Source: Herpetosiphon geysericola
GTDB lineage: Bacteria > Chloroflexota > Chloroflexia > Chloroflexales > Herpetosiphonaceae
Direction: 5' to 3'
NCBI RefSeq assembly: GCF_001306135.1
Contig: NZ_LGKP01000025.1
Location: 1-64,000 of the forward strand
DNA: 64,000 nt
The notes beneath the pieces were generated by a model. That model did no database searches. It was not told where the DNA came from and worked only from the letters and a program-made list of their open reading frames with translations. Shown piece after piece: positions 7,281 to 58,561 of this stretch. Each line of letters begins with the position of its first letter. Position 1 is the first letter of the stretch. The position numbers and the translations under genes are program-made.

Positions 7281-7286
7281 AAGGCG

Positions 7287-7450
7287 CACCCTTCGCTGTA
7301 CGTGCGGTGGGAATTAGTTTTGAGCCAACACTTTATGAAGGGGAGCTGGGTTCCGCGACTAGTGCGGCTGGTGTTGCACGACTCAAGGGCTGGCACCCAC
7401 CTGCGAAAGCAGGTTCAAAACTACCCCGCTCACGGCTGATTGAAGGGTGT
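7287..7450 (+). ncRNA. ssrS: 6S-like regulatory RNA candidate
   Basis: About 160 nt fold as a long rod. ACCCTTC (7288-7294) pairs with GAAGGGT (7442-7448). TAGTTTTGA (7315-7323) pairs with TCAAAACTA (7415-7423). A CCTGC-GAAA-GCAGG hairpin (7400-7413) lies on the 3' side of the central region. An apical arm carries CCGC...GCGG and CAACAC/GTGTTG pairs. This long closing stem, open centre with a 3' small hairpin, and apical arm is the 6S RNA plan. 6S RNA binds RNA polymerase holoenzyme. A T-rich tract (7449-7458) follows. The alternative is a cis-acting leader of holA, whose start is 10 nt away. No covariance search was possible. Confidence 0.6.
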
Positions 7451-7458
7451 TTTCTTTT

Positions 7459-55236: not shown

Positions 55237-56397
55237 ATGCCCAAACAAGCGCTTGAACAATCAATCCAGCAGTTACGCCAGATTATGCTGATCGCCCTCG
55301 CCTTCGTTGGCTACAGCCTAGGGTTTATGTTGTTCTACGATCAGATGGGGGCCGTGATTGGCTCGTTATTACTGCTCCCCGTTGGTTTAGCTGCCTGGTT
55401 TTTGGGTTGGCGTGGTGGTTTGATCGCGGCTTTGATTGGGATTTGCCTTAACATCGGCTTATTTTTGTTGAATAGGGCATCCTTTGTTGAGATTCTAGCG
55501 CTTGGGCCTGGCTTGATGATGGCATTTGTGGTCGGCGGCGCCATTGGCTGGTTGCGTTCGTTGCTCGATAAAATTCAGGCTCAAACGAGCCAGCTGGAGC
55601 GCGAGCGCGAATTATTGGCCAACGAAATTAGCCAACGCAAGCAAATCGAGCAATCGTTGCTGGCTGCCAAAGAAGATGCAGAGTTGGCAAACCACTCGAA
55701 AAGCCAATTTTTGGCCATGATGAGCCATGAGTTGCGCACGCCGCTGAACGCGATTATTGGCTATAGCGAGTTGCTGCAAGAAGATGCAGCCGCTGAGCAA
55801 TTAACGACTTTTGAGCAAGACCTGAAGATCATTCACAATGCTGGCGTGCATTTGTTGGGCTTGATCAATAGCGTGCTTGATTTGGCGAAGATTGAGGCCG
55901 GACGCATGGAATTATTTGGCCAAGATTTCCAGGTACACGAGTTAATTGATGATTTGGTGTTATATTGCCAGCCGCAAATTGCCAAAAATAGCAATCGTTT
56001 GGTGTTGGATATTGCTGAGAACGTGGGTTTGATGCATAGCGATGTGCAAAAGCTGCGCCAAATCTTGCTTAACTTACTGAGCAATGCAGCCAAATTTACC
56101 CAACAAGGCACAATTACCTTGCGGGCGAAGCGCGATGGCGATTGGTTGCATTTTGAGGTTGCTGATAGCGGCATCGGCATGAGCAGCGAACAACTTGCTA
56201 ACCTATTCCAGCCGTTTGTGCAGGCCGAGCAATCGACGGCGGCACGCTTTGGCGGCACTGGTTTGGGGTTGGCAATTAGTCGTTCGTTAGCTAAACTTTT
56301 AGGTGGCGATGTTATGGTTGAAAGTATTCAAGGTCAGGGGTCGTCTTTCCAATTAATTGTGCCAGCCTTTCAGTTGGCTCCGGTTACGGCAATGTAG
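55237..56397 (+). CDS. Membrane sensor histidine kinase
   Basis: The 386-residue protein has four hydrophobic helices (~15-110) laid out like the KdpD-type DUF4118 sensor. A coiled coil follows, then HisKA (His in MMSHELRTPLNAIIGYSELL, ~165) and HATPase (NLLSNAAKFT, DSGIGM, GGTGLGLAIS, ~270-380). It has no receiver and no adjacent response regulator, so it is an orphan kinase. The sensed signal lies within the membrane or close to it. Confidence 0.9.
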   Translation: MPKQALEQSIQQLRQIMLIALAFVGYSLGFMLFYDQMGAVIGSLLLLPVGLAAWFLGWRGGLIAALIGICLNIGLFLLNRASFVEILALGPGLMMAFVVGGAIGWLRSLLDKIQAQTSQLERERELLANEISQRKQIEQSLLAAKEDAELANHSKSQFLAMMSHELRTPLNAIIGYSELLQEDAAAEQLTTFEQDLKIIHNAGVHLLGLINSVLDLAKIEAGRMELFGQDFQVHELIDDLVLYCQPQIAKNSNRLVLDIAENVGLMHSDVQKLRQILLNLLSNAAKFTQQGTITLRAKRDGDWLHFEVADSGIGMSSEQLANLFQPFVQAEQSTAARFGGTGLGLAISRSLAKLLGGDVMVESIQGQGSSFQLIVPAFQLAPVTAM

Positions 56398-56458
56398 GCA
56401 ATGTTGGGTCATGGTTCTATCCCACATTTGGCGCAACGCATTCATACACATTGCTTAT

Positions 56459-56486
56459 TTGACAAGCACCAAAAGTACGCTAAAAT
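56459..56486 (+). promoter_or_regulatory. Promoter TTGACA-N16-TAAAAT
   Basis: A perfect -35 (56459-56464) and TAAAAT (56481-56486) are 16 nt apart. They start a transcript near 56493, more than 300 nt before the decarboxylase gene. Confidence 0.75.
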
Positions 56487-56654
56487 ATGCAACGGTGATC
56501 AAAATTCACCAAACGGTTTCCGTGCCTTCTCGGCGCTCATCGGCAGCAGGTCGCTGCATCAATTGGAACGATGAGTGATGGTTGTTTTCTGGGGCGCATC
56601 ACATTGTTTTGAGCGCTGGTTTTTGACTTCCGAGCGGGCTTTCAACGAGGCTAT

Positions 56655-56726
56655 ATGAACGGTAGACAGAATTTTTGCACGCTGCGACAGATTGCGCGGC
56701 GCTGTGCTGAACCTCCCTCAATTTAG
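56655..56726 (+). CDS. Candidate Arg-containing leader peptide
   Basis: ATG 56655 with GAGG 4 nt upstream opens a 23-codon frame ending TAG. It has four Arg codons (AGA, CGA, CGG, CGC), including LRQIARRC, and lies in the leader before a probable arginine decarboxylase. Part of the frame (56662-56670) forms one strand of the closing helix of the leader domain, so ribosomes on it would change the folding. There is no proof of translation. Confidence 0.4.
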   Translation: MNGRQNFCTLRQIARRCAEPPSI

Positions 56727-56784
56727 GTTGGTGAGTGTTGAAATCATGCTAGCAGACTAGCAATGGTTCTCTGTCTATCTCCTC

Positions 56785-56811
56785 ACCTGCCACAAATTGG
56801 GCAGGTTTTTT
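56785..56811 (+). terminator. Intrinsic terminator before the decarboxylase gene
   Basis: ACCTGCC (56785-56791) pairs with GGCAGGT (56800-56806), followed by a run of T. It sits between the leader and the coding region, as an attenuator would. Confidence 0.85.
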
Positions 56812-56857
56812 ATGCCCAGTGCTTAAGCCAAATGTCGCCCTGACACGTGGTTTTTTT

Positions 56858-58561
56858 ATGCCCAAAAAAGGGCAACGCACTTGGGAGTCTCCGTCAATAA
56901 ACACACAAACGAACAGCGCTAATTTTGATTGTACTTTGTTCTCTCAGCACCATGTTGTGGCTGAGCACTATCGTCGTGGCTATCACGGCTTGGAGGGACA
57001 CGTCCAGTTGATCGAGCAAACCTATGCTGGCTACCTGAATGATTCATTTGGCTTTTCGGGGGCTGGGGCTTTGACCGATTTTCTAACGCGCCGCAACGAG
57101 CGCTTGCTCTTAGGCGATACGGTCGATCTGGGTGCACTAGTTGAGCAATTTGGTGCGCCCCTTGAGGTTTCGTTCTGCCCGCAAATTACCACGCAGGTGC
57201 AGAATATGCTTGATTATGCGATGGCTGCACAGGTATCAGCAGGCTATACAGGCTCGTTCTTGTATGCCTATGCTACCAAGGCCAACTTTTCGGAAGAAGT
57301 GGTGCGTACAGCCTTGAATGCTGGTGCTCACTACGAAACCTCGGCTGCTGCCGATGTGGTGATTGCGCACCATCTCTGGCGCCAAGGCGTGCTTTCCGAA
57401 GATCGCTATATCTTCTGTAATGGCTCGAAAGAGCCGATGTATCTCGATGGGATCTTGGCGTTGCGCCACGCTGGCTACGAACGCGTCGTGGCAGTGCTCG
57501 ACGATCTCGATGAGCTTGATTATATTTTGACGCACAGCCGTGAACCAATGTTGTTTGGTGTTCGTGAGCGCCACGCCCCTGAAGTCGTGGATCGCAATCA
57601 TGCTGGAGCAGAACGCTTCGGCTTAACGCCCGCAGAAATGCAGCTTGTTGCTCAACGTTTGGCTGGGACTGCCCATGAATTGGTGGTCTATCACGCTATG
57701 GTTGGCTCGCAAATTGAGGATGCTGCTGCATGGGAAGCCCGTTTGGCACGTTCAGCCAACGCCTATGCTGCTTTGGCTAGCACCAGCCCAAGCTTGACGA
57801 TGTTCAATTTTGGCGGCGGCATGCCAACCTCGGGCTACGATTTGAATTTCCAATTCGATTATGTTGGCTTTTTGACCAACTTGATGGCTAATACCCAGGC
57901 AATTTGTGCTGAGCATGGCGTGGCAGCGCCCATGATCATCGCCGAATGTGGCCGCTACACCGTTGCTAACCATAATGTGTATTTGATTGAAGTTGGCCGC
58001 GTGAAGGAAGCTGGCGCAATTGAGCCTTGGTATTTGTTGAATGGCTCGTTGATGGTTTCGGCCCCAGATACCTTGATTGTTGATCAAGAATTTGTGGTTG
58101 TGCCCTTGGATGGCTGGGATACCGCAGTGCAAGCAGTGCGCTTGGGTGGCCGCCGCACCTGCGATTCCGACGATCTGTATCCACGTTCGCATCGCCCAGC
58201 CTTGATGTTGCCTGAATTCCAAACTGGCATGGTGTTGGCAGTCTGTGGCGTTGGCGCATACCAAGCCATGATTGGCGGCAAAGGTGGCGCACATCACTGT
58301 TTGAACCCAGAAATGCGCCGCATTATCATCGAGCAAGATGGCGATCAATTGGTGATGCGCGAGATTGCCCCACAAAACTTGATGGCTCAAATGAGTGCTT
58401 TGGGCTATAGCATTGCCACGATCGAGCAACCAGCCCGCAAGCCTCTGCCAGTGCGCACTGCTGTGGTGAGCGAGCAATTGCCAGTGCGGCCATTACGCGC
58501 TGCCCGTCGGCGTCAAGCGCCCTCAACCTTGCGCACCAGCCGTTTTGCTGCAAGTGCCTAA
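56858..58561 (+). CDS. PLP-dependent decarboxylase, probable arginine decarboxylase
   Basis: The ~567-residue fold-type III enzyme would convert arginine to agmatine for polyamines. The PLP Lys is in LYAYATKANFSEEV, followed by AHYETSAAADV, VYHAMVGSQIED, FNFGGGMPTSGYDL and IIAECGRYTV. The Cys/Asp active-site end is seen as RRTCDSDDLYPR. It is shorter than the ~640-residue SpeA type, and a related diaminopimelate or ornithine substrate is not excluded. The C-terminus is basic and Pro/Arg-rich. ATG 56858 and GTG 56819 are both possible starts, and neither has a ribosome site. The terminator just upstream implies control by readthrough. Confidence 0.75.
   Translation: MPKKGQRTWESPSINTQTNSANFDCTLFSQHHVVAEHYRRGYHGLEGHVQLIEQTYAGYLNDSFGFSGAGALTDFLTRRNERLLLGDTVDLGALVEQFGAPLEVSFCPQITTQVQNMLDYAMAAQVSAGYTGSFLYAYATKANFSEEVVRTALNAGAHYETSAAADVVIAHHLWRQGVLSEDRYIFCNGSKEPMYLDGILALRHAGYERVVAVLDDLDELDYILTHSREPMLFGVRERHAPEVVDRNHAGAERFGLTPAEMQLVAQRLAGTAHELVVYHAMVGSQIEDAAAWEARLARSANAYAALASTSPSLTMFNFGGGMPTSGYDLNFQFDYVGFLTNLMANTQAICAEHGVAAPMIIAECGRYTVANHNVYLIEVGRVKEAGAIEPWYLLNGSLMVSAPDTLIVDQEFVVVPLDGWDTAVQAVRLGGRRTCDSDDLYPRSHRPALMLPEFQTGMVLAVCGVGAYQAMIGGKGGAHHCLNPEMRRIIIEQDGDQLVMREIAPQNLMAQMSALGYSIATIEQPARKPLPVRTAVVSEQLPVRPLRAARRRQAPSTLRTSRFAASA

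Follow-up and report, generated by a model that had tools for sequence, protein, structure and literature searches.

A probable ribosome-mediated attenuator with a conserved 5' domain precedes a putative arginine decarboxylase gene in the Chloroflexales

What does a leader of some 320 nucleotides do in front of a probable arginine decarboxylase gene? The question is raised by the window analyzed here, 64,000 nucleotides of DNA from Herpetosiphon geysericola, in which a first-pass annotation had pointed to a promoter, a 23-codon open reading frame with four Arg codons, a possible antiterminator (GGTGAG with CTCACC) and an intrinsic terminator. We could locate every one of these elements. We propose that the leader is probably a ribosome-mediated transcription attenuator of the decarboxylase gene, equipped with a new conserved 5' domain. 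Comparison of sequences among relatives supports the upstream open reading frame (uORF), the helix P2, the antiterminator/terminator pair and their fixed spacing; the three-state ribosome logic is given by calculation only, in which it comes out clean for each of the six Herpetosiphon species.

The gene, its promoter and the spread of the leader

The two outer landmarks of the locus are as follows.

56459-56486, + strand: strong promoter, TTGACA-16-TAAAAT, with 11 of 12 consensus matches and a conservation boundary at the -35 box
56897-58561, + strand: probable arginine decarboxylase gene, by likeness to SpeA structures; start ATA at 56897

The decarboxylase is PLP-dependent and has the SpeA/LysA fold, and its closest PDB structures are biosynthetic arginine decarboxylases SpeA (3nzq, E 1.1e-20). 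It lies below the curated NCBIfam equivalog cutoffs for SpeA (PRK05354, 134 bits versus 369; speA TIGR01273, 116 versus 624), and we consider it a probable SpeA-like arginine decarboxylase. The same genome encodes an agmatinase that exceeds its cutoff, and the agmatine deiminase AguA was not found there, which makes the agmatinase route likelier. In three relatives (L066, L082 and L092), a candidate gene just 5' of the leader encodes what we take, from its translation, to be an arginase-like protein, a neighbor that ties the leader's context to arginine use. Given the agmatinase and these neighbors, the pathway served is likely to run from arginine to putrescine.

Translation of the decarboxylase most likely starts at ATA 56897, which is preceded by a Shine-Dalgarno sequence, GGGAG, at 56883-56887. 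An ATG at 56858 was ruled out because single-base indels break that frame in relatives. The arrangement around the ATA codon (GGGAG(G), 7-9 nt, ATA AAC AC) is conserved in three Herpetosiphonaceae genera, and in other lineages the start is TTG or GTG with no evident ATG. Such a conserved non-AUG start suggests that initiation of the decarboxylase is deliberately weak or regulated.

From the position of the promoter, transcription is predicted to begin at about 56493, which gives a leader transcript of about 319 nt ending at the terminator at 56785-56811. Counted as bare patterns, neither signal exceeds its shuffled expectation (promoter 2 versus 1.4, terminator 1 versus 2.2); they rise above chance because the leader is conserved in congeners and the same architecture is found again ahead of the orthologous gene throughout the order. 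The fold energy of the whole leader is 3 sd below that of dinucleotide shuffles. No Rfam 15 family, riboswitches and T-box included, reached its gathering threshold over 56380-57000, and two weak matches at E <= 10 in that interval were judged chance. Neither in the window nor in ten relatives did Rfam families, speF included, match the leader, which can still be called undescribed. Elsewhere in the window, at 7285-7452, lies a 6S RNA (RF00013; 65.4 bits, E 1.1e-10).

The source genome, of 6.1 Mb, has H. aurantiacus, H. giganteus and H. llansteffanensis among its relatives, at 96-98% protein identity. In five congeners the leader occupies the same place and is 92-98% identical. In the genus alignment, 21-27 of 40 columns vary just 5' of the -35 box versus 0-10 of 40 inside the leader; for most of the upstream histidine kinase gene the figure is about 10-15 of 40. 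Within the genus, leader and decarboxylase gene are conserved to about the same degree; the argument is therefore structure and not conservation by itself.

A DNA search of 60 relatives with the leader as query gave nothing above noise beyond the congeners, and the wider family was reached only through protein orthologues and then the sequence upstream of them. The orthologous gene is present in 58 of 60 relatives. Where the upstream regions of Chloroflexales were read, every lineage with enough sequence has the same plan before this gene: a TTGACA-type promoter, a hairpin P1, a linker resembling TATTCGnGC, the helix P2, TTTnnnGAGG, a uORF start UAUG(G/A)ACG and an intrinsic terminator, in that order from 5' to 3'. 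The promoter lies 103-195 nt 5' of every orthologous uORF. A covariance model built from 31 leaders finds the element, at E <= 1, in 75 of the order's 82 genomes. Its match is directly 5' of the gene in 54 of 58 gene-bearing genomes, and in the other four (G033, G035, G039 and G056) the gene sits at a contig end.

Some further matches were examined and set aside. Those read among the phylum-wide matches outside the order (400 genomes) sit inside unrelated ORFs and were judged chance. Of two apparent second copies, one (G025 C63) is this leader again, from a duplicate contig, and the other (G006 C4) lies inside an ABC-transporter ORF.

The genes upstream of the leader vary among lineages while the match is found at the decarboxylase gene in every testable genome, which marks the leader as a cis element of this one gene. 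This also bears on the proposal that the RNA is a free-standing small RNA with its own promoter, ended by the terminator T1. Promoter and terminator would indeed yield an RNA of about 319 nt, and terminated leaders of such kind can accumulate. However, an independent RNA would not be expected to adjoin the same gene in every testable genome, and the conserved complementarity between antiterminator and terminator (see below) would have no role; we regard this proposal as extremely unlikely. On the genomes compared, the leader is instead an element of the whole order Chloroflexales, specific to one gene.

Conserved parts of the leader

Between promoter and gene, the leader in the window is made up of these parts.

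56494-56510, + strand: hairpin P1, GGTGA/TCACC, at the 5' end of the leader; kept with changed arms elsewhere
56524-56533, + strand: 5' arm of helix P2, GCCTTCTCGG, found by covariation and by the swap scan
56630-56639, + strand: 3' arm of helix P2, CCGAGCGGGC, ending 7 nt 5' of the uORF Shine-Dalgarno
56647-56650, + strand: uORF Shine-Dalgarno GAGG, conserved at -8 to -5
56655-56726, + strand: uORF of 23 codons with four Arg, MNGRQNFCTLRQIARRCAEPPSI and stop; start kept, frame open
56708-56736, + strand: antiterminator 5' strand, TGAACCTCCCTCAATTTAGGTTGGTGAGT, running from the distal uORF to just beyond the stop, from the swap test
56781-56809, + strand: antiterminator 3' strand, which takes in the entire terminator hairpin
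56785-56811, + strand: intrinsic terminator T1 (ACCTGCC...GGCAGGT and a T run), stem 56785-56806
56828-56857, + strand: second terminator-like hairpin T2 (CCAAATGTC...GACACGTGG and T7), from the genus alignment

Other lineages form P1 with GGCGC/GCGCC, GGTAG/CTACT, GGTCG/CGACC or GCGAT/ATCGC arms; this hairpin was left out of the formal covariation test because its loops align badly. P2 has a covariation score of 0.407 versus 0.192 (sd 0.022) in shuffled alignments, with two-sided changes at four of the five outer pairs, and 86.5% of its alignment cells are paired versus at most 63% in slid versions. The interior of P2 ranges from 3 to 126 nt among lineages, with no conserved core seen. The single-stranded flanks of P2 are conserved over the order, as TATTCGnGC on the 5' side and as TTTnnnGAGG and UAUG(G/A)ACG on the 3' side. 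A pairing of the linker with AUGGACG, examined by eye, was inconsistent among lineages and was dropped.

The 3' flank of P2 leads directly into the uORF. Its Shine-Dalgarno positions -8 to -5 are G, A, G and G in 22, 25, 25 and 25 of 27 lineages, the base before the AUG is U in 27/27, and the start UAUG(G/A)ACG is common to nearly all. Frame 0 is open over 23 codons in all 27 lineages, versus 10 and 12 for the other two frames. Codon 2 is GAC or AAC throughout the 27 and never GAT or AAT, which indicates a constraint at the level of the RNA and not of the peptide. The distance from uORF start to terminator is 121-136 nt in most lineages and up to 167 in outliers. By this comparison, it is the start, the Shine-Dalgarno, the open frame and the spacing to the terminator that are under conservation, and the uORF is a candidate translated leader ORF of the attenuator type, with a Shine-Dalgarno of its own. 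As to single codons, Asn6 is kept in many lineages through both AAT and AAC, codon 7 is mostly TTA, GTA, ATA or CTA with the third base A kept, and both codons lie midway along the stretch in which ribosome pausing would lead to the antiterminator.

Sensing through an Arg-rich ORF is not supported by the comparison. In classical attenuation of this kind, scarce charged Arg-tRNA would stall the ribosome on uORF Arg codons, and in the window an AGA at codon 4 and a CGA at codon 11 do lie in or at the edge of the antiterminator-giving stretch. However, Arg codons amount to 0.92 of the composition expectation over 27 lineages, which share no conserved Arg-codon run; the residues that are raised are Asn, Asp and Cys, Asp because of codon 2. 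Moreover, a cell short of arginine would have little reason to switch on an enzyme that consumes it, and we give this explanation very little credence.

The uORF peptide itself could be the sensor: with arginine, ornithine or a polyamine bound to it inside the exit tunnel, it would arrest the ribosome as SpeFL does. The uORF precedes a polyamine gene, and MD(G/V)xxN(L/V/I) recurs at the peptide N-terminus. Arrest peptides, however, usually retain residues near the stalling site, whereas past the first residues this peptide differs among families, and within clades its nonsynonymous versus synonymous changes match a neutral permutation. The length of the uORF also varies, from 23 to 42 codons. 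A SpeFL-like peptide, which the first-pass annotation had offered as a parallel, is therefore highly improbable, its substitutions appearing unconstrained and Rfam giving no speF match.

More serious is the possibility that arginine, agmatine or a polyamine is bound by P1-linker-P2-UAUGGACG acting as a riboswitch, which would control uORF initiation or the downstream fold directly, with the ribosome as a mere relay. The order-wide conservation of the single-stranded P2 flanks and the RNA-level constraint on codon 2 would fit such a receptor, the conserved P2 is compatible with it too, and the leader is dedicated to one gene. Against this, the changing P2 interior offers no conserved core, Rfam gives no riboswitch match, and the conserved stretch falls on a ribosome-binding site, which could be conserved without any ligand. 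We judge a direct riboswitch unlikely.

Attenuation by the ribosome, the reading we prefer, calls for alternative folds downstream of the start. A blind scan for 12-nt window pairs that fold better natively than with partners swapped between lineages returned one anti-diagonal, uORF nt 52-76 with terminator nt 0-24. The same scan recovers P2 with z -5.8, a positive control of the method. In a swap test of 40-nt and 34-nt windows from 21 lineages, with each clade represented by one leader and the lineages treated as independent, the native mean was -28.8 kcal/mol versus -24.2 (sd 0.87) for permuted partners, a value reached in 0 of 20000 permutations. Four of six control windows were null, and two upstream windows gave p 0.02-0.04, far weaker, one of them overlapping the antiterminator strand. 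Against its own shuffles, the antiterminator strand gives a Stouffer Z of -7.3.

Because the terminator is self-complementary, a duplicated hairpin might mimic the swap-test signal. A test with the terminator loop only disfavors this artefact (native -8.82 versus permuted -7.63, sd 0.43, p 0.0055), and the loop signal appears only in windows that overlap the antiterminator strand, being absent in distant windows. The pairing of GGTGAG (56730-56735) with CTCACC (56782-56787), singled out at first as an antiterminator candidate, thus stands as the loop-proximal end of a larger helix, in which distal uORF nt 45-84 are complementary to the entire terminator hairpin; in the window, this duplex is worth -28.0 kcal/mol. 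Within Herpetosiphon, CAATT lies opposite AATTG in G000, G003 and G005, and CAATC lies opposite GATTG in G001, G002 and G004. The antiterminator is weak in several lineages (L044, L045, L089, L097, L100, L104 and L059). From these tests, the predicted antiterminator and the intrinsic terminator are mutually exclusive and conserved by structure. Overall, the alignment and covariation in relatives bear out what the annotation had put forward for checking: a helix that covaries, P2, and a uORF and terminator that are kept.

T2 lies 3' of T1 and pairs better in sister species; it is not released by the antiterminator, a point against the attenuator reading. A third hairpin, GCCCAAAAAAGGGC, stands between T1 and the gene; with T2 it spans 56828-56873, and both are conserved in the genus. 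TGGGCA/TGCCCA repeats at 56828-56873 could form further alternative pairs.

Ribosome position and the calculated switch

In Herpetosiphon, the minimum-energy and consensus folds contain one more helix, an anti-antiterminator that we call P3.

56661-56670, + strand: P3 5' strand, GGTAGACAGA, seen in Herpetosiphon only
56770-56779, + strand: P3 3' strand, TCTGTCTATC, invariant in the genus

The CCTC that follows the 3' strand, at 56781-56784, is paired to GAGG of the uORF. Since P3 does not vary within the genus, covariation lends it no support; as a general helix it was not seen in the swap scan of other lineages, where pairing of the uORF start with the pre-terminator region reaches a weak z of about -2.5.

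To calculate how a ribosome would affect these folds, we folded the segment that begins 30 nt 5' of the uORF and closes with the terminator, kept 30 nt unpaired as the footprint of the ribosome, and took folding at equilibrium, kinetics ignored. With no ribosome, the terminator has a probability of 0.92-0.98 in 6/6 Herpetosiphon leaders, because of P3 and the GAGG/CCTC pairing. With a ribosome on codons 1-10, its probability is mostly low, single codons excepted, and up to 18-20 antiterminator pairs form, with a weaker effect in L003. From codon 11 on, the terminator returns to near 0.98, with a second dip in L007 at codons 14-15, and the switch point at codon 10/11 is shared by all six species. 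In the two of the six leaders tested against shuffles, L002 and L005, 0 of 150 shuffles each reproduced the pattern. Outside the genus, the calculation shows switching in L048, L053, L054, L086, L092, L093 and L101, and in about half of the other lineages this equilibrium folding keeps the terminator wherever the ribosome is placed. In these locked lineages, either co-transcriptional kinetics decide or the logic differs.

These calculations suggest the following course of events. Polymerase would start near 56493 and transcribe P1 and P2 first, followed by the ribosome-binding site of the uORF and the uORF itself. As long as no ribosome has loaded, the uORF start would pair with the pre-terminator segment as P3, the antiterminator strand would be locked, and transcription would stop at the terminator. 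A ribosome on the first ten or so codons as the terminator region emerges would break P3, allowing the distal uORF to pair with the entire terminator hairpin and polymerase to read through into the gene. A ribosome at the uORF stop would, in Herpetosiphon, cover the antiterminator strand and let the terminator re-form. Where the uORF is longer, a finished ribosome would occupy the spacer between antiterminator strand and terminator and never the terminator itself; the stop is 18-64 nt from the terminator, never less than 18.

Lying beside the Shine-Dalgarno, P1-P2 may adjust how readily ribosomes load onto the uORF or pause early in it, whether or not a ligand takes part. The signal could be polyamine or arginine status: slow initiation on the uORF at low polyamine, for example, would conceivably give sensible feedback. 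A bolder version, which we put forward only tentatively and think improbable, is that P1-linker-P2-UAUGGACG represents a new class of RNA sensor for arginine, agmatine or a polyamine that acts through ribosome loading or early pausing on a peptide-indifferent uORF to set the terminator/antiterminator switch.

Relation to known systems and significance

The closest comparison is with ribosome-mediated attenuators of the trp/his type, such as enterobacterial trp and his and Corynebacterium ilvBNC (PMC10272879, PMC11857589). The leader shares with these a short ORF, a mutually exclusive antiterminator and intrinsic terminator, and a predicted OFF state with no or a finished ribosome and ON state with an early-stalled one. 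Unlike them, the Herpetosiphon leader lacks the regulatory codon run that defines classical members, the distal uORF supplies its antiterminator strand, which is complementary to the terminator hairpin in full, and an extra conserved 5' domain, P1-P2, precedes the uORF; gene and phylum differ as well.

Polyamine genes elsewhere offer partial parallels. In the enterobacterial speF leader (PMC6386406, cited in PMC7815308), the nascent peptide SpeFL senses ornithine and affects Rho. Like the leader described here, speF has a uORF and alternative RNA folds 5' of a polyamine-making decarboxylase; the present leader differs in its intrinsic terminator, in having no conserved peptide and in the lack of an Rfam match. 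The Rho-dependent mdtUJI leader of E. coli carries mdtU, a 34-codon uORF that has to be translated for control to work and that encodes a peptide with a conserved C-terminus, and the potB 5' RNA of Borrelia has its 3' end inside the ORF (PMC7815308, PMC10319736). Both show polyamine-linked premature termination, and mdtUJI, like speF, resembles the present leader in gene context, but they control transporters and not a biosynthesis gene, and the mdtUJI leader further differs from ours, which has an intrinsic terminator and no conserved peptide. The antibiotic-resistance attenuator vmlR of Bacillus subtilis likewise links transcription attenuation to a uORF; its signal is an antibiotic (PMC9226507), in contrast to the order-wide metabolic-gene leader described here, with its covarying helix before the uORF.

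In the openly licensed papers searched, we found no leader of such kind described for Chloroflexi or for an arginine decarboxylase. The element adds to the Chloroflexota an order-wide, structurally supported RNA regulator, and its alignment and covariance model could seed a new Rfam family. Here, ribosomes are predicted to control a polyamine biosynthesis gene with neither a conserved sensor peptide nor a codon run. If the sensor-class reading were true, the leader would be a riboswitch speaking through a ribosome. More broadly, the locus raises the question of whether a cell may gauge its polyamine or arginine status by ribosome initiation and pausing on a short ORF, perhaps aided by a structured RNA.
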